The notes under the pieces were generated by a model that ran no database searches, was not told where the DNA came from, and saw only the letters and a list, made by a program, of their open reading frames with translations. The position numbers and the translations under genes were made by a program. Shown here one piece after another: positions 4,399-35,072 of a stretch of 37,418 nucleotides of DNA; position 1 is the stretch's first letter, and every line of letters starts with the position of its first letter. This stretch comes from a virus. The stretch is from positions 1-37,418 of the IMG/VR virus record IMGVR_UViG_3300027710_000067; one strand, written 5' to 3'.

Positions 4399-6603
4399 TT
4401 AAGTCCCCCAAATGTTTGCGATGCCTTGGCCAAAGCCCGGATTGCTACCTAACCCAGACAGCAGTGCGGCGAACGGGCTGGTTGTCGCTGCGCGGCCCAT
4501 TGAGATGTCCGCAGCAGTTCCTGCACCCGCCAAACCAAGTCGTCCAGCGTTTGCGCCTGCGGTAGCCACTTGATTGGCCAAACCGGTGCTCATTGTGAAC
4601 GGTTGCTGCCCTAACTTCTCAAGATCTGTGACCTGACCCATTGCGCTAGTGTAAGGTGCATACGCCGCTTGCTGGCCTGCGTAGAAGTTGCCCAGCGTCG
4701 TAGCACCAGTGCCAAGCAGACCTGCGCCAAACGTGACGTTTTGCTGACCCGCTTGTTGGGCATTTGCGGCCAGTTGTGCCTCTTGCTGTGCGCGGGCGTT
4801 GAACAGCGCCTGCAACTCAGGTGTTGTTGCGCCCATAGCGCCGCCTTGCGCCACAGACAGACCTGCGCGGCCTTGCTGCTGCAACCTGTTTTGCAAGTTG
4901 GCCAGCTCCAGCTCACGACCAGGCTGCAAGAGCGCCATCTGTTGGTTGATGTAGTTTTGCGCCACGTCTTGCGGCGACTGCGCGAGGTATTGGTTGCCCA
5001 AGCTGAACAGACTCTGCGCACCAGTTTGCAAAGGTGCGAACTGCTGCTGCGCGGCCTCGGCTTGCGTGATGCCTTGGTTTGCCAGAGCCGCAAAGCGGTC
5101 CTGCGCTGCCCGAGCCTCGGGAGTGAGTTGGTAGCCTGCGCTAGTCATCTGACCTGTCACCGGGTCGTACTGGAACTGCGAAGTGCCAAAGCGCGTTGTC
5201 ATGCCGATTGGACGGAACTGAGCGCCTTGCACCGCCTGCTGCGTAGCGGCGTTGATGCTGGCAGCACCTGCTTGCGCAGCAGCGCGGTCTTCCTGCGATT
5301 GCAGCAAACCACCACCGAGTTGGAGGGCGCTGGGGAGAACCTGACTCAGCAGCCCGCCTGTGCCAGCGGGTAGCCTTGTAGCGCCTGCTGCTGGTGCAGT
5401 AAGAGCACCGCCCGCAGCGGTAGCCGCGCCCGCCGCAGATAGTAAATCGCGGCCTGTTACAGCGTTGTTAGTGACCCCGGTCAGCGCGGTTGTGGCAGCG
5501 CCTGTTGGGTCAGTCCACGTCTGGGTGGCAGGGTCGTAGTTGTACCCACTCATGGAGCCTATGTTAGTGCCTGACGTGGCGTTGGTTAACGGCCCCAACA
5601 GCCCGCCGTTAGGGTCGCGGATGAACTGGCCTGTAATTTCGTCGTAGTAGCCTGCGCCGCTACCGCCGAGGCCACCGATATTACCTAAGCCGCCTCCACT
5701 AAGAAACCCACCAGCGCCGCCAAGCAAAGCACCTCGCAGTACGTTATTACCTGTCAGCGCGGCAGTACCACCGCCCACCAAAGCACCGCCAAGCGCGCCT
5801 TGGGCAGCGCCGCCAAGTGTAGGTGCCAAAGTAGAGCCTAACGCCGCTGCGCCGCCGCCTGCGGTAAAACCAGCAGCAGCCAACAGCGCGGCGGGTTTGA
5901 GCGTGTCCTCACGGAACTGCATCCAGCTACTCTGACGGTTGCTTGTGTAAGGCAATGCAGTGCCGTCAGGCGCAAACTGAATTTGGTAGTCAATATCCAG
6001 GCCGCGAGTGCCACGGCCCAAGAGTTCTGGGCGGGGCAGCGGCTGACCAGTCGCTTTGTTGATCGTGATCTCTTGGCTGGGTTGTTCACCGTCGCCCGGT
6101 ATGGTTGCTTGGCCCAACTGACTCAACGAACCAATACCGTTCTCGGCCAAGCGCAACGCGAAATCCGCAGCCGCAGCTTGAGGCGACGCTGTGTTGCCTG
6201 CGTACCAAGCCGGGGCCGTGCCCGCTTGTTGTTGTGCCAAGATTTCGCGGTAGACGTTCTGCGCGTTTTGCCCCATCACACCGCCGAGCTTGCCCAGCTC
6301 TTGCTGATAGTTGGCGTCGCCGGATTTGAGAGCCTGAACGTACTTATCGTAGTCCCAAGAAGGGCCAGATGCTACTGTTTGTACAGGCGCTGCCGCTGCT
6401 GCCGCTGGCGCTGTGGCAGTGTTGGTGTTGTAGTAATTTGTAATCTCATTGGGGGCAACTCCGTACCGGGCGGCAAGAATGTCCGTTAGACCGGCATTGG
6501 CATCCAAACCGCCAATGCTTTGAATTGCAGCAACGACCTGTTGGCCGGTTGCGTTTGGGTTATCAGCAAACCACCGATCCACCTGCTCTTGTAATGCGGA
6601 CAT
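4399..6603 (-). CDS. Putative internal virion / structural protein, Gly-Ala rich (734 aa)
   Basis: The ATG follows AAGGAGAAAGATT. The N-terminal 60 residues form a small charged helical region (MSALQEQVDRWFADNPNATG). A low-complexity linker (TATAPAAAAAAP) follows. The middle is extremely Gly/Ala-rich and hydrophobic (about residues 240-330), compatible with membrane insertion during ejection. The C-terminal third is Gln/Ala helical (LQNRLQQQGRAGLSVAQGG...). It is the first of the three long terminal late genes. I infer an ejection-protein role but cannot exclude a tail-hub protein. Confidence 0.5.
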   Translation of the reverse strand: MSALQEQVDRWFADNPNATGQQVVAAIQSIGGLDANAGLTDILAARYGVAPNEITNYYNTNTATAPAAAAAAPVQTVASGPSWDYDKYVQALKSGDANYQQELGKLGGVMGQNAQNVYREILAQQQAGTAPAWYAGNTASPQAAAADFALRLAENGIGSLSQLGQATIPGDGEQPSQEITINKATGQPLPRPELLGRGTRGLDIDYQIQFAPDGTALPYTSNRQSSWMQFREDTLKPAALLAAAGFTAGGGAAALGSTLAPTLGGAAQGALGGALVGGGTAALTGNNVLRGALLGGAGGFLSGGGLGNIGGLGGSGAGYYDEITGQFIRDPNGGLLGPLTNATSGTNIGSMSGYNYDPATQTWTDPTGAATTALTGVTNNAVTGRDLLSAAGAATAAGGALTAPAAGATRLPAGTGGLLSQVLPSALQLGGGLLQSQEDRAAAQAGAASINAATQQAVQGAQFRPIGMTTRFGTSQFQYDPVTGQMTSAGYQLTPEARAAQDRFAALANQGITQAEAAQQQFAPLQTGAQSLFSLGNQYLAQSPQDVAQNYINQQMALLQPGRELELANLQNRLQQQGRAGLSVAQGGAMGATTPELQALFNARAQQEAQLAANAQQAGQQNVTFGAGLLGTGATTLGNFYAGQQAAYAPYTSAMGQVTDLEKLGQQPFTMSTGLANQVATAGANAGRLGLAGAGTAADISMGRAATTSPFAALLSGLGSNPGFGQGIANIWGT

Positions 6604-20404: not shown

Positions 20405-22975
20405 TTAAAAAGTTACTTCAGTTGTTTCCAGCTTGCACACGCACCGGATGGTCGTAGCCGCTTGGCCTGTGAATGTGATTTGCAAACCACCGTTGGTTGT
20501 GTCAGCAGCGGCTGCAATTGTCCATGTAGCAGCGCCTATGTCAGCAAACGGAGACATGACTGTAACGCCTACAAGCGTTGTAGAGGCAGCATTAGCACCA
20601 CGTTTGATAGCGCCCTCAATTGTCCAACTTTTTGTATTGCCGCCACCTGTTACGTTGGCAATAACAGTTCCTCTGAAATAATAGGCAGAGTTGTTGGGTA
20701 AAAGGACTTGGTTGGTTGTGCCTGCTGCACCGCCATCAGAAGCCAAAACAGTTGGAGTTGCATCTGTTGTTTGTCGGGCAAGAATTAAAAGTGCCGCTTG
20801 AGAGTTGCCAACTAAAAAAGTATTTAATGGCGAAAAAGAAGCTGGTGAGACTGTGTATCCAGTAATTCCCCTAGTTGACCCGTAGCCGCCACCATTAACA
20901 GTTCCAACTGTGCTGTTTGCAAGATTTTGCCGACCACCAGAAATTACAGCGTTATATCCTGATGCGTTATTACCCATTCCTCCGGAAACAACCGCACTCA
21001 AGTTGCTTGCAGTATTTGCAGATTGGGTTAATCCATCAAAACCCCCGCCACCAATAAATGCGCCAATGCCAGATGCCTGATTACCACGCCCACCCCCAAC
21101 CGTACTCCAATCCCCAGAAGCCACGTTCCTGTTAGCAGCAGTACCAGCATCACCACCACCGCCGATGAAGCTGTACGCTCCTGTGGCTTGGTTGTTACCA
21201 CCGCCTACCACTACACCGTGAGGAGTGAAGAAGGACAGGGTTGATGTGGATGAGCCAGTTGCGGCTTGGGATAGCGTCAGGGATGTGCCAGAGATTGCGG
21301 CAACGTAGGTGTGCGGGAAAGCCTGAATGCTTGTGCCAGTAATAAGCTGACCAACCCTGATGCTGGCGTTGGAACCTGACAGAGTCACGGCTGTTGTGCC
21401 GTTCATTGTCCCCGTTTGCGTTGTTACAGCAGCGTTGGCTGTGCCTGAATTACTAAAACCCGTTCCAACAAAGTTATAAAAACCGTTTGCAATATTTGTG
21501 TATCCACCGCCAATTACTGCGCCATATCCTGAGGCGGTATTTGATATTCCAGACAAAATGCCAGCATACGTCCCGCCTACTGCGTTTCCAGTACCGCCAG
21601 CAACAGTTGTCACAGTTCCGCTGGATGTATTGTTTAAACCACCGCTGATGATTGAATACAAACCGCTGGCAACTTGGCTTGCGCTTGACCTTGCCGTCTG
21701 CCAATCAACAGCATTAGCACCCCGAGCATTACCGCCTGTGGCTGTAGAGTCTGTCTGTTGGGCTTGTAAAGCTCCTGTGCCTTTTGGTTGGACTACGACA
21801 GGGATGTTGGTGTCTGCGCCAGCCGCCATAACAACAACAGCATTTCCCGCAGATGAAGCACCGATTTGCACATAGTTAACAGGGCTTGCTTGCGCGGCAT
21901 AGAACTGACCAAATATGTTGCCACCGCCGTACCCACGGAATTGGTGACCGCCAAAACCTTTAGAAAAATACAGAATCCCTGTGTTGGTATCACTGCCTTG
22001 CGCGGAAATTGTTACCGCTCCACCAGTAGCCGCCCCCGTCACCTGTACGAAGTTCACAGCAGAGGCTGTGTGGGAGACTATTGCTTGAATATTCGCGTAT
22101 GTTCCAGTTTCAAATAAATGCGACGCGCCTGTACCAACTCGGTAACGAATGTTTCTGCTTTGCGATCCCGCAGAAATAATTGACGGGTCGTCTCCGCTGA
22201 CTGCACCTTTAATTTGCACCCAGTTAATGCCGGATGTGGTAGTCGTAACACGCAGTCCTTCAGCGCCAGCCACACCACCCAAGCTAGTCTGCCCCGTAGC
22301 AGTCAGCGTAGTAAACGTACCCGCAGCAGGGGTTGTGCCGCCGATAACCGTGTTGTTTATCGTGCCGCCTGTGATGGCTACAGCATTGGCGTCTTGCTGG
22401 GCCATTGTGCCCAGTGTGCCGTCGATGCCGGTCAAGACGTTGATCTGGTCTTGCAGGTCCACCAGTGTGTCCAGCACCTGCTGACTGGTGCTGCCGCCGG
22501 ACGTCACCAGCTTGATCTTCTCGGCCAGGTCAGGTGCTACGACCTCACCGACGTTCATCTCACGGCCAGTGGACAGTGTAATGACCAGTGAGCCGTCGAA
22601 GTCGATGCGAGCATCTACCACCGACACGCCGTCTTGGCCATCTTGACCGTCTTGGCCGTCCTTGCCGTCCTTGCCATCACGGCCTGGCAGACCGTCTCGG
22701 CCCGCTGGACCGTCCTTGCCCGCCGGGCCGTCCTTGCCATCCTCACCGTTCTTCAATGAGGCGACTTTGCTCTGGATGTCGTAGTTCAGGCTATCGAACT
22801 TGCCCTCGAAATCCGATTTGATCTTCTTGAGACCTTGGATCACCAGCTCGGCGCTCTTGCCGATGGAGATTTGCCTTTGCTCTTCCAAATGGGCCATCGC
22901 CGATTTTTGAAGCTCCAGCACAGCCGTCATCTGCTCATCGGCTGTCATCCCTTCGAGGTTTTTCAACAGTTCCAT
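20405..22975 (-). CDS. Collagen-like tail fibre / adhesin (856 aa)
   Basis: The layout is an N-terminal coiled-coil region (about 1-75), about 13 collagen-type Gly-X-Y triplets (residues 77-116), and a beta-rich domain with TFTTLTATGQTSLGG. A central repeat region follows with Gly-Gly-rich units such as ISGGLNNTSSG, IGGGYTNIANG and VSGGMGNNASG, resembling YadA/Hia head repeats. The C terminus is a beta domain (about 740-856). Such trimeric fibres bind hosts. The start overlaps the portal stop (TAATG), so it is coupled to portal translation, an unusual place for a fibre. Confidence 0.75.
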   Translation of the reverse strand: MELLKNLEGMTADEQMTAVLELQKSAMAHLEEQRQISIGKSAELVIQGLKKIKSDFEGKFDSLNYDIQSKVASLKNGEDGKDGPAGKDGPAGRDGLPGRDGKDGKDGQDGQDGQDGVSVVDARIDFDGSLVITLSTGREMNVGEVVAPDLAEKIKLVTSGGSTSQQVLDTLVDLQDQINVLTGIDGTLGTMAQQDANAVAITGGTINNTVIGGTTPAAGTFTTLTATGQTSLGGVAGAEGLRVTTTTSGINWVQIKGAVSGDDPSIISAGSQSRNIRYRVGTGASHLFETGTYANIQAIVSHTASAVNFVQVTGAATGGAVTISAQGSDTNTGILYFSKGFGGHQFRGYGGGNIFGQFYAAQASPVNYVQIGASSAGNAVVVMAAGADTNIPVVVQPKGTGALQAQQTDSTATGGNARGANAVDWQTARSSASQVASGLYSIISGGLNNTSSGTVTTVAGGTGNAVGGTYAGILSGISNTASGYGAVIGGGYTNIANGFYNFVGTGFSNSGTANAAVTTQTGTMNGTTAVTLSGSNASIRVGQLITGTSIQAFPHTYVAAISGTSLTLSQAATGSSTSTLSFFTPHGVVVGGGNNQATGAYSFIGGGGDAGTAANRNVASGDWSTVGGGRGNQASGIGAFIGGGGFDGLTQSANTASNLSAVVSGGMGNNASGYNAVISGGRQNLANSTVGTVNGGGYGSTRGITGYTVSPASFSPLNTFLVGNSQAALLILARQTTDATPTVLASDGGAAGTTNQVLLPNNSAYYFRGTVIANVTGGGNTKSWTIEGAIKRGANAASTTLVGVTVMSPFADIGAATWTIAAAADTTNGGLQITFTGQAATTIRCVCKLETTEVTF
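22628..22747 (-). repeat. Collagen-like Gly-X-Y coding repeat
   Basis: About 120 bp encode consecutive Gly-X-Y triplets rich in Asp and Lys (GKDGPAGKDGPAGRDG and GQDGQDGQDG). The DNA consists of near-identical 9-bp units (for example CTTGGCCGT on the plus strand), which makes the tract prone to slippage and recombination. It forms the triple-helical stalk of the fibre. Confidence 0.85.
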
Positions 22976-31673: not shown

Positions 31674-31683
31674 CCCAAAAAAA

Positions 31684-31709
31684 TGCCCCGACTGGTTAGG
31701 GTCGGGGCA
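31684..31709 (-). terminator. Perfect leftward intrinsic terminator inside the rightward operon
   Basis: TGCCCCGAC (31684-31692) pairs fully with GTCGGGGCA (31701-31709) across an 8-base loop. On the minus strand it is followed by seven T (31677-31683). On the plus strand no U tract follows. It would stop antisense transcription rather than the operon itself. Confidence 0.65.
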
Positions 31710-31730
31710 AACTTCATCGAGGAAACAATC

Positions 31731-32759
31731 ATGAAAATACCCGAGAGTGATCATAACATTCAGGCGCTAATTGACAAGCACCATGAAGCAATCGCAGAAG
31801 TCCCTCGCCCTCACCTTGGAGCCAGTACGCTGGGCCATGTGTGTGATCGGTGGCTTTGGCTGTCGTTTCGGTGGGCTGTGCAGCCTAAGTTCTCTGGCCG
31901 CATCTTGCGCTTGTTCAGGCGCGGACACCAAGAAGAAGCCAACATCATCAGCGACCTGCGTGCCATTGGTGTAGATGTGCGCAAGGTCTCAAGTCAGCAC
32001 CGGGTCGATTTTGGTAGCCATGTTTCGGGGTCGCTTGATGCGATCATTGACTCTGGCGTGCCTCAAGCGCCAAAGACCAAGCATGTGGCCGAGTTCAAGA
32101 CGCACAGCAAGAAGTCGTTTGATGCGCTGGTCAAGGACGGCGTGGAGAAGTCCAAGCCCGAGCACTTTGTGCAGATGCAGGTTTACATGGCTGGCACTGG
32201 TCTAGACCGTGCGCTGTATGTGGCTGTCTGCAAGGACGATGACCGGATCCACACCGAGCGCGTGAAGCTAGACAAGGATATGGCTGATAAGGCCATACGC
32301 CGAGGGCACTACATTGCTTTGAGCGACAACATGCCGCCACCGATCAGCACCGATGCCAGTTGGTATCAGTGCAAGTTCTGTGATGCCCATGAGTTCTGCC
32401 ATGAGTCCAAGACCACCAAGCATGTGAACTGCCGCACCTGTGCGATGGCCACACCGCTGTCGGACTCGACCTGGCACTGCGGCAAATGGGACGATGTTAT
32501 TCCGGTGGACGCACAGCGCAATGGCTGCGACGGCCATGTCCTGCACCCTGATCTGGTGCCTTGGCAGCGCAAAGATGGGCCTAACGAATTCACTGCGGTC
32601 TATGAGATCAATGGCACAACTGTGGCCAATGGCGACCCAGAGCAAGAGGGTGTGTTCAGTAGCAAGGAACTGCTGGCTAACGCTGGTGCGTGCGCTGACA
32701 AGGGCTGGACGCAGCTGCACGATATGCGCAAGCAGTTTGGTGGAAGGGTTGTAGCGTGA
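31731..32759 (+). CDS. PD-(D/E)XK exonuclease with probable Fe-S cluster (342 aa)
   Basis: The start is the ATG after GAGGAAACAATC. Nuclease residues: RRGHQEE (63-69), GSLDAI (Asp103), AEFKTH (Glu121/Lys123) and QMQVYM (Gln149). Cys38 in HVCDRW plus Cys214, Cys217 and Cys223 (CKFCDAHEFC) reproduce the 4Cys layout of Cas4/AddB-type Fe-S nucleases. Further CRTC at 234-237 and Cys250 may form a second zinc site. It probably resects DNA for the Sak4-like protein. Its stop overlaps a GTG start (GTGA). Confidence 0.8.
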   Translation: MKIPESDHNIQALIDKHHEAIAEVPRPHLGASTLGHVCDRWLWLSFRWAVQPKFSGRILRLFRRGHQEEANIISDLRAIGVDVRKVSSQHRVDFGSHVSGSLDAIIDSGVPQAPKTKHVAEFKTHSKKSFDALVKDGVEKSKPEHFVQMQVYMAGTGLDRALYVAVCKDDDRIHTERVKLDKDMADKAIRRGHYIALSDNMPPPISTDASWYQCKFCDAHEFCHESKTTKHVNCRTCAMATPLSDSTWHCGKWDDVIPVDAQRNGCDGHVLHPDLVPWQRKDGPNEFTAVYEINGTTVANGDPEQEGVFSSKELLANAGACADKGWTQLHDMRKQFGGRVVA

Positions 32760-33493
32760 ACAAACAAGGAGAATTAAATGAGTTGGCTCTTTTCGCAGGT
32801 GCTGGTGGAGGAATACTTGGCGGGAAACTTCTCGGATGGCGAACAGTCTGCGCCGTTGAATGGGAACCCTATCCAGCAAGCGTACTGTGCGCCAGACAAA
32901 ATGACGGACTTCTCCCGCCTTTCCCGATTTGGGATGACGTTCAAACCTTTGACGGAAAGCCGTGGAGAGGAATTGTTGACGTCGTTTCGGGCGGGTTTCC
33001 ATGCCAAGACATCTCATCAGCCGGAAAAGGTGCAGGGATTGATGGAGAACGATCAGGAATGTGGAGCCACATGGCGAGGGTGGTTGGCGAAGTACGACCC
33101 AGATACGTCTTTGTGGAGAACAGCCCAATGCTCGTTACTAGAGGACTTGAACGAGTCCTTGGCGACCTTACCGCGCTCGGGTATGACACGAAATGGACTG
33201 TTATGGGCGCTGCCGATGTTGGAGCAAACCACCAAAGAGACAGAATTTGGATTGTTGCCTACTCCCGTCAGATCGGATTGGAAAGGCACTTCTCGAAAAA
33301 GCAAATTCGACAACAGGGCAAGGCAATATCAAGCATGGGACGATGGGACGGAAGCATCAACCCTGTATCCAAACCCATTGGCTTACGAAGCCTTAATGGG
33401 GTGGCCGCTGGGGTGGACAGACTTAAAGCCATTGGTAACGGACAAGTCCCCTTATGTGCTGCAACAGCATGGAGACTGTTAAATGCTGCGTGA
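32756..33493 (+). CDS. DNA cytosine-5 methyltransferase, dual-coded (245 aa)
   Basis: GTG start inside the previous stop. Motif I ALFAGAGGGILGG (11-23), motif IV GGFPCQDIS (catalytic Cys83), motif VI ENSP (121-124), motif VIII QRDRIW (160-165) and motif X GNGQVP (227-232) are all present in order. The target recognition part (about 171-213) is very short. It probably methylates phage DNA against host restriction. Almost its full length is also read in +1 by another complete ORF. The ribosome binding site AAGGAG at 32764 serves that ORF, so this start may depend on coupling. Confidence 0.85.
   Translation: MNKQGELNELALFAGAGGGILGGKLLGWRTVCAVEWEPYPASVLCARQNDGLLPPFPIWDDVQTFDGKPWRGIVDVVSGGFPCQDISSAGKGAGIDGERSGMWSHMARVVGEVRPRYVFVENSPMLVTRGLERVLGDLTALGYDTKWTVMGAADVGANHQRDRIWIVAYSRQIGLERHFSKKQIRQQGKAISSMGRWDGSINPVSKPIGLRSLNGVAAGVDRLKAIGNGQVPLCAATAWRLLNAA
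32778..33482 (+). CDS. Full-length +1 overlapping ORF, methyltransferase-linked family (234 aa)
   Basis: An ATG with AAGGAG and six bases spacing opens an uninterrupted 234-codon frame, nested entirely in the methyltransferase gene. It starts MSWLFSQVLVEEYLAG and has CGATWRGWLAKYDPDTSLWRTAQCSLLEDL, GLLPTP and LMGWPLGWTDLKPL near its end. I recognise this pattern as a common phage protein family. Its stop lies exactly one base before the helicase ATG. Function is unknown. Both frames look like genuine proteins; alternatively this family is an annotated artefact of conserved Dcm codons. Confidence 0.65.
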   Translation: MSWLFSQVLVEEYLAGNFSDGEQSAPLNGNPIQQAYCAPDKMTDFSRLSRFGMTFKPLTESRGEELLTSFRAGFHAKTSHQPEKVQGLMENDQECGATWRGWLAKYDPDTSLWRTAQCSLLEDLNESLATLPRSGMTRNGLLWALPMLEQTTKETEFGLLPTPVRSDWKGTSRKSKFDNRARQYQAWDDGTEASTLYPNPLAYEALMGWPLGWTDLKPLVTDKSPYVLQQHGDC

Positions 33494-35072
33494 ATACCAA
33501 CAGCGCACCATCGACCAGCTTTATGCTTGGTTTGAGGCTGGTGGCCGTGGCAACCCTTGCCTAGTGCTGCCGACCGGCTCCGGCAAGTCGCACATTGTGG
33601 CCGCGCTGTGCAAGGACGCCTTGCAGACTTGGCCAGAGACTCGTGTTCTGATGCTGACCCATGTGAAAGAACTGATTGAGCAGAACGCTGAGAAGATGCG
33701 CCAGCACTGGCCAGGTGCTCCAATGGGCATTTACAGCGCCAGCATTGGCCGGCGTGATCTGGGCGAGCCGATCACGTTTGCTGGCATCCAGTCGGTGCGC
33801 ACCAAGGCGCGTGAGCTGGGCCACATCGATCTGGTGATCATCGACGAGTGCCACCTAGTCAACCACAAGGACGAGGGCGGCTACCGCACGCTGTTGGAGC
33901 AGCTTGCAGCGATTAACCCAGCCATCAGGGTGGTGGGATTGACAGCCACACCTTACCGCTTGGGGCATGGCCTGATCACCGACAAGCCTGCGCTGTTTGA
34001 TGCCCTGATTGAGCCTATCAGCATCGAAGAACTGATCTACAAGGGCTACCTGTCCACGCTGCGCTCTAAGATCACCAAGGCCAAGCTGGATGTGACTGGC
34101 GTTCACAAGCGCGGCGGCGAGTTCATTGAATCTGAGTTGCAGGCTGCGGTGGACACGGACGACAAGAATCAGGCTGTGGTGCATGAGGTCATGGCTTTGG
34201 CTGGCGACCGTAAGGCTTGGCTGTTCTTTTGCGCCGGTGTCCAGCACGCCCAGCACATTGCCGAGGCACTGCGTCAGCAGGGGGTGGCCGCTGCTTGCGT
34301 GACCGGGGACACACCAAAGAAGCAGCGCGATGAAATCATTGCCGACTTCAAGGCTGGCAAGCTGCAAGCGCTTACCAACGCCAACGTGCTGACCACTGGC
34401 TTTGATTACCCCGACATTGATCTGGTGGTGATGCTGCGCCCGACCATGAGCGCCAGCCTCTATGTGCAAATGGCAGGTCGCGGCATGAGGGTCAAGAGCC
34501 ACACCGATCACTGCCTGGTGCTTGACTTTGCCGGGGTGGTGGCCACACATGGCCCAATCACCAACGTGCAGCCACCAAAGAAGGGCGGCGATGGCAATGG
34601 CGAGGCACCAGTGAAAGCCTGCGAGAACTGCGACGAGTTGGTCCATATCTCGGCAACGGTGTGCCCAGCCTGCGGCCATCCTTTCCCTGTGAGGGAGGCC
34701 AAGAAGCTGCAACTGCGCAATGACGACATCATGGGGCTGGAGGGGCAAGAGCTCGAGGTGAGCAGCTGGGCATGGCGCAAACACATCAGCAAGCAATCAG
34801 GCAAAGAAATGCTGGCGGTAACGTACTACGGCAGTCTGAGCGATGCACCAATCACTGAGTACTTGCCGATTGCACATGAGGGCTATGCCGGGCAGTCTGC
34901 CGTGCAAAAGCTAATCACCATTGCAGAGCGTGCCCAAATTGTGCGCGGTGGTTTGAATGTTCCAACAATGATTGAGATGGCGCAAAACTTGAACAACTCA
35001 ACACCGCCAAGCATGATCGAGTATCGCAAGGACGGTAAATTTTTCAAAGTAACGCGAAGGAAATGGGAATGA
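33483..35072 (+). CDS. SF2 DNA helicase with C-terminal zinc finger (529 aa)
   Basis: Motif I LPTGSGKS (29-36), motif II IDECH (120-124), motif III TATP (154-157) and motif VI QMAGRGMR (329-336) are complete. A CENC...CPAC cluster (380-397) forms a zinc finger. It is an SSL2/RecQ-like phage helicase for repair or recombination-dependent replication. It overlaps the methyltransferase by 11 nt. Confidence 0.87.
   Translation: MLREYQQRTIDQLYAWFEAGGRGNPCLVLPTGSGKSHIVAALCKDALQTWPETRVLMLTHVKELIEQNAEKMRQHWPGAPMGIYSASIGRRDLGEPITFAGIQSVRTKARELGHIDLVIIDECHLVNHKDEGGYRTLLEQLAAINPAIRVVGLTATPYRLGHGLITDKPALFDALIEPISIEELIYKGYLSTLRSKITKAKLDVTGVHKRGGEFIESELQAAVDTDDKNQAVVHEVMALAGDRKAWLFFCAGVQHAQHIAEALRQQGVAAACVTGDTPKKQRDEIIADFKAGKLQALTNANVLTTGFDYPDIDLVVMLRPTMSASLYVQMAGRGMRVKSHTDHCLVLDFAGVVATHGPITNVQPPKKGGDGNGEAPVKACENCDELVHISATVCPACGHPFPVREAKKLQLRNDDIMGLEGQELEVSSWAWRKHISKQSGKEMLAVTYYGSLSDAPITEYLPIAHEGYAGQSAVQKLITIAERAQIVRGGLNVPTMIEMAQNLNNSTPPSMIEYRKDGKFFKVTRRKWE

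Follow-up and report, generated by a model that had tools for sequence, protein, structure and literature searches.

A phage locus proposed to encode the two chains of a 5-methylcytosine DNA methyltransferase in overlapping reading frames

Large same-strand gene overlaps in prokaryotes are usually doubted. M.EcoHK31I, the YGGCCR methyltransferase of an Escherichia coli type II R-M system, has the gene for its small subunit nested inside the gene for its large one, in another frame. The conserved motifs of this enzyme are divided between the two chains, with motifs I–VIII and X in the large polypeptide and motif IX in the small one, and both polypeptides are required (Lee, Kam & Shaw 1995, as cited in PMC3404938). 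Its predicted TRD has been placed in the large subunit (PMC3404938). A second arrangement is that of M.AquI (CYCGRG), in which motifs I–VIII are in the alpha subunit and motifs IX–X in the smaller one (PMC3404938). Split methyltransferases of such a type have already been used for targeted methylation (PMC3439449).

Here we describe a virus record (the window, 37,418 nucleotides) in which a single stretch of DNA, judging from sequence, very probably specifies in two frames the chains of a heterodimeric m5C (5-methylcytosine) DNA methyltransferase of the type represented by M.EcoHK31I.

Organization of the locus and its two ORFs

Two overlapping ORFs are present on the same (+) strand of the window. 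The first, alpha (32756..33493, frame 0, 245 aa, GTG start), has the m5C DNA methyltransferase motifs I–VIII and X and is the predicted catalytic subunit. The second, beta (32778..33482, +1 ORF, 234 aa, ATG start), is nested within alpha in the other frame with an overlap of 705 bp, and is proposed to be a small-domain subunit that contains motif IX together with the variable region of target recognition. The order of genes is Sak4-like annealing, SSB-like, Cas4-domain exonuclease, alpha/beta and helicase. The GTG start of alpha overlaps the stop of the exonuclease gene (31683..32759, + strand; phrog_1990, E=5.4e-96), and the TAA of beta (33480-33482) abuts the ATG at 33483 of the DNA helicase gene (33483..35072, + strand; phrog_16, E=6.4e-105). 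No endonuclease of a type II R-M system was noticed adjoining alpha/beta, and these two flanking genes point to an orphan phage enzyme, although this is a matter of context and not a defining trait. Elsewhere in the window, three large ORFs of the structural half (895-2847, 4399-6603 and 20405-22975; - strand) had no PHROG match at 1e-5.

The start of beta has its own signals. A Shine-Dalgarno sequence, AAGGAG (32766..32771, + strand), is separated by a 6 nt spacer from the beta ATG (32778..32780, + strand), which is embedded in the alpha Asn-Glu codons AAT GAG. Among 169 distinct contexts from homologues, 111 have an SD-like core ahead of beta, and the start codon is ATG in 223/223 homologues. 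Across alpha genes AAC is the commoner Asn codon (665, versus 600 for AAT), and therefore the invariant AAT that forms the beta ATG is not due to codon bias. In 136 of the 169 contexts alpha starts exactly 4 nt upstream of the beta ATG (ATGAATGAGTTGG), so that a single ribosome-binding site can serve both chains. The window has TTA at the -4 position and alpha starts instead at the GTG at 32756, giving a distance between the two starts of 22 nt, versus 4 nt in most relatives.

Alpha matches PF00145 (E=1.3e-32, positions 5-176 of the 324 of the profile only) and phrog_363 in the PHROG comparison, and its fold matches are M.HhaI (E=7.8e-13) and M.HaeIII. Sequence and alignment place in it the core by which C5-cytosine DNA methyltransferases are recognized (motif I, PCQ of motif IV, ENV/ENS of motif VI and motif VIII), namely motif I (FAGAGGG, 32792..32812), motif IV with the catalytic Cys (GGFPCQDIS, 32990..33016), motif VI (FVENS, 33110..33124) and motif VIII (HQRDRIWIVA, 33230..33259), all on the + strand. 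Motif X (AIGNGQVPLCAATAW, 33428..33472, + strand) is also in frame 0 and immediately follows the +1 motif IX. Taken together, the Pfam match, the structure model and the motif IX profile gave neither motif IX nor a small domain in the same chain as this core. The catalytic core and motif X helix of the alpha model are confident, while residues 182-227, where a small domain is expected, are disordered, indicating that alpha is without a folded small domain.

Beta matches phrog_1008, named DNA methyltransferase (E=1.7e-19), and had no match in Pfam, NCBIfam or PADLOC, nor to the PDB by sequence at E<=10. An AlphaFold model of beta alone was poor (pLDDT 56.5). Its N-terminal half is long and conserved (MSWLFSQALVEEYL...), and its core YDPDTSLWRTAQ (33093..33128, + strand, +1 frame) lies over alpha motif VI. 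This core also occurs de-overlapped, 3' of motif VIII, in a single-chain relative described below. The variable region (33260..33368, + strand), disordered in the alpha model, precedes motif IX (PNPLAYEALMGWPLGWTDL, beta residues 198-216; 33369..33425, + strand, +1 frame); the C-terminal segment PNPLAYEALMGWPLGWT is motif IX-like, and the C-terminal consensus of beta is [LN]NPxWxEWLMGWPxGWTDL.

A first-pass annotation of this DNA had reported two same-strand frames sharing about 705 bp, an AAGGAG six bases before the +1 ATG and a full 234-codon +1 ORF whose stop abuts the helicase start, and each of these features is present at the coordinates given above. Its statement that frame one holds every C5-methyltransferase motif did not stand, as motif IX is absent from frame 0 and is found in the +1 frame.

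Distribution of motifs IX and X between the frames

The identification of motif IX was aided by relatives with a longer alpha, which have LxPRFVEWMMGLPDG directly 5' of motif X in frame 0. This segment of single-chain relatives is homologous to PNPLAYEALMGWPLGWTDL of beta, and the longer-alpha profile aligns it collinearly with RKLHPRECARVMGYPDS of M.HhaI (PDB), albeit with a low score of 3.2 bits. Scoring of 285 distinct loci with a 17-column profile placed motif IX in the +1 frame only in 245 loci, in frame 0 only in 25 and in both frames in one, and it was undetected in 14. In the frame-0 class, the +1 frame is mostly open over motifs VI–VIII and the variable regions and has several stops over motifs IX and X; selection results for this class were weak and in the same direction as those given below. 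On a tree of the alpha core the frame of motif IX changed at least six times, five of these changes being forced by well-supported branches, a count that is indicative as this was a quick tree with long branches. Two loci have unusual arrangements. In locus L267 (1754-2745) each of the two frames has a motif IX-like sequence around a repeat of the dinucleotide CA (THTHTHT), and motif X is in a third ORF, which may reflect a recent frameshift, a sequencing error or a phase-variable repeat. In L291 (1664-2908), alpha has an unusually long stretch from the variable region to motif X.

Motif X also varies in its location. In the window it stays in alpha, with motif IX in the +1 frame, whereas in relatives L001, L281-L285 and L287 the +1 ORF carries both motifs, as is the case within beta of the Euratis- and Lemur-type relatives. 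The layouts of M.EcoHK31I and M.AquI both occur among alpha/beta loci. In the actinobacteriophage “DNA methylase” pairs of L001 (1308-1808 and 1777-2367) and L002 (1302-1835 and 1813-2397), the genes correspond to the two subunits, and the second one, which carries motifs IX and X, has probably been annotated too short because overlap was avoided.

The relatives with motifs IX and X together in the +1 frame are relevant to programmed frameshifting, in which the ribosome would slip from alpha into the +1 frame to produce one fused chain and no separate beta. A single shift could join motifs I–VIII of alpha to the variable region, IX and X in loci such as Streptomyces phage Euratis (L001) and L281-L285. 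However, in the window type the frame would have to change twice, to +1 for IX and then to frame 0 again for X, so that a fused chain would take two shifts in opposite directions. In addition, beta has its own Shine-Dalgarno sequence, an ATG in all 223 homologues and a conserved N-terminus beside the alpha start, and M.EcoHK31I, whose motifs are distributed in the same way, functions as a pair of polypeptides (PMC3404938). We therefore regard frameshifting as improbable.

We think it likely that the overprinted catalytic and DNA-reading subunits represent a widespread, old class of phage methyltransferase and that their overlap serves as a switch in evolution. Motifs IX and X would be shuttled between the chains by frameshift mutations while one copy of each is kept per enzyme, with occasional escape by tandem duplication.

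Co-occurrence, a single-chain relative and selection on both frames

Alpha and beta were found together throughout the loci that we retrieved. Beta was encoded at +1 in 80/80 viral loci fetched by alpha alone (full length in ~77), and an overlapping alpha was present in 65/65 bacterial genome loci fetched with beta. The first-pass annotation had raised the prospect of each frame occurring without the other; among loci fetched by similarity to either frame, a search from which very distant single-frame relatives may escape, there was no beta-free alpha or alpha-free beta. The pair occurs in isolated phages of Pseudomonas, Salmonella, Klebsiella, Vibrio, Acinetobacter and Stenotrophomonas, as well as of Microcystis, Synechococcus, Bacteroides, Porphyromonas, Mycobacterium and Streptomyces, and the host phyla of phages with the pair are Pseudomonadota, Actinomycetota, Bacteroidota and Cyanobacteria. 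Only four E. coli genomes matched the Citrobacter alpha/beta, two of the matches adjoining ead/Ea22-like prophage genes, and the EcoHK31I locus was not identified among the E. coli genomes searched with that pair. Most records examined have only alpha annotated; in those of Euratis and Lemur the second ORF is annotated too, both ORFs being called “DNA methylase” by the submitters.

A single-chain relative, L286 (IMGVR_UViG_3300025320_000152, 1119-2885), places beta within the methyltransferase. Its single ORF matches, in order, the alpha profile at 5-175, the beta profile at 103-229 and the alpha profile at 224-247 (motif X). The beta part has 53% identity over 253 aa to beta of phage Euratis and independently matches phrog_1008 (E=2.7e-29). 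The +1 frame over its alpha core contains stops, and a decayed alpha is present in the frame before the beta copy (LRPGHAHLENA...DRGQQVLQASVHQVGFDARR and a stop). To judge from these remnants, it looks as if the overlap was resolved by a tandem duplication after which alpha survived in one copy and beta in the other. In this single chain beta fills precisely the place of the variable region and motif IX, with motif VIII before it and motif X after it, and the arrangement shows that beta forms a distinct protein domain.

These observations bear on whether beta is instead an independent protein, such as an anti-restriction protein or regulator, that merely overlaps a methyltransferase. The long conserved N-terminal half of beta and its lack of a match to any known family in Pfam, NCBIfam or PADLOC would be compatible with this, but no anti-restriction, defence or regulator family was matched in these collections, which speaks against it. 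Also against it are the lack of any beta without alpha among the 65 genome loci fetched with beta, the naming of phrog_1008 as a DNA methyltransferase, and the confinement of motif IX to one frame or the other and the L286 chain, both of which put beta inside the methyltransferase. We consider an independent role very unlikely. The dual coding proposed by the first-pass annotation is thus borne out by co-occurrence, selection and start context, while the anti-restriction or regulatory role that it suggested for the partner is not; beta behaves like a small-domain subunit and is most likely that of the same methyltransferase.

The +1 frame is open to an extent not expected by chance. Synonymous shuffling of the alpha codons in the window gave a mean of 6.7 stops in the +1 frame, which was fully open in 0/2000 shuffles. 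Among 116 distinct homologues the +1 frame was open across the tested overlap in 114, for which the chance is ~0.003 per gene. A mean of 15 stops was counted in the +2 frame of homologues. Relative to synonymous shuffling, which ignores shared ancestry, +1 identity was 0.60 (0.35 expected) and identity at four-fold sites was 0.70 (0.33 expected).

Selection was tested in 44 independent pairs using four substitution classes. The dN/dS of the +1 frame was 0.30 (0.26-0.35) for alpha-synonymous changes (SN/SS) and 0.58 (0.51-0.66) for alpha-nonsynonymous changes (NN/NS). The corresponding values were 0.93 and 1.56 in the +2 frame control, and 0.87 (0.72-0.98) and 1.10 (1.01-1.27) in the +1 frame of 13 neighbouring genes with a single coding frame, taken from these pairs. 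The constraint at synonymous sites that the first-pass annotation had put forward as a check was found. In the variable region dN/dS was 0.68-1.14 for alpha (frame 0) and 0.29-0.49 for beta (+1); with beta constrained and alpha near neutral, the sequence there is kept for beta. Broken +1 frames beside an intact methyltransferase, also sought, were largely absent. Isolated nonsense codons with the other frame intact were seen in beta of L008 (codon 144, TAG) and in the alpha frame of L130, L175, L180, L183 and L185, and these alleles may represent decay, error or recoding.

Although overlapping frames share bases, so that some +1 conservation is automatic, it is scarcely credible that the +1 ORF is an untranslated shadow conserved only through alpha, given its openness, the excess identity, the departure of its dN/dS from both controls, which contradicts a shadow, and the occurrence of the beta core outside alpha in L286. 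Purifying selection acts on the beta protein, which is not a shadow of the alpha frame. Shadow ORF, programmed frameshift and independent anti-restriction protein were all considered and rejected, and dual coding by alpha and beta is strongly supported by sequence comparison because of the conserved co-occurrence, selection on both frames and the conserved start context.

Proposed enzyme and comparison with known systems

Three observations support a heterodimeric enzyme: both frames are under purifying selection, motif IX occurs once per locus in either frame, and L286 is a single-chain equivalent. In the arrangement that we propose, alpha would form the large catalytic domain, which would bind SAM and contain the motif IV catalytic Cys, motifs VI and VIII and the helix of motif X. 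Beta, from its own ribosome-binding site and ATG, would supply motif IX and the variable region, in which we infer target recognition to reside, and is proposed to provide the small-domain fold. Both chains would be translated from one message, from starts 22 nt apart here, and would assemble into one enzyme for which both are needed. The complex is predicted to methylate a specific cytosine in phage DNA, its activity and target site being likewise predictions, and the simplest role of such methylation would be evasion of host restriction.

The overlap is backed by broad conservation in phages, selection on both frames, the confinement of an essential motif to a single frame and a relative in which duplication appears to have undone it. 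Since most of the annotations examined omit beta, many phage “DNA methyltransferases” represent, as annotated, only half of the enzyme, and alpha tested alone could be misread as inactive. Such an overlap also offers an explanation for shifts of subunit boundaries, and alpha/beta represents a compact natural split enzyme.

The phage breadth, selection evidence, frame switching of motifs IX and X and duplication were not found in the literature searched, which included few subscription papers. The breadth, selection evidence and frame switching are new, and the kind of enzyme is already known from one that has been studied biochemically, M.EcoHK31I. Alpha resembles the single-chain m5C methyltransferases (PF00145, M.HhaI and M.HaeIII) in its core fold and in having motifs I–VIII and X, but unlike them is without motif IX and a folded small domain. 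A coding region out of frame inside a methylase gene is also seen in the phage DNA methylase gene with a homing endonuclease insertion; however, that is a mobile insertion, whereas beta overlaps the methylase core and is not an insert. Relatives L001, L281-L285 and L287 resemble M.AquI in having motifs IX and X in the +1 ORF, whereas in the window motif X is in alpha and not in the small chain. The closest likeness in described layout is to M.EcoHK31I, since alpha in the window has motifs I–VIII and X with motif IX in the other chain, and this match points to an m5C methyltransferase of that kind, present in the phage as an orphan enzyme. As in M.EcoHK31I, the second chain is encoded within the first gene in another frame. 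Unlike M.EcoHK31I, the alpha/beta of the window is an orphan phage gene among replication and recombination genes, and its variable region is constrained mainly in beta, in contrast to the large-subunit TRD predicted for M.EcoHK31I (PMC3404938).
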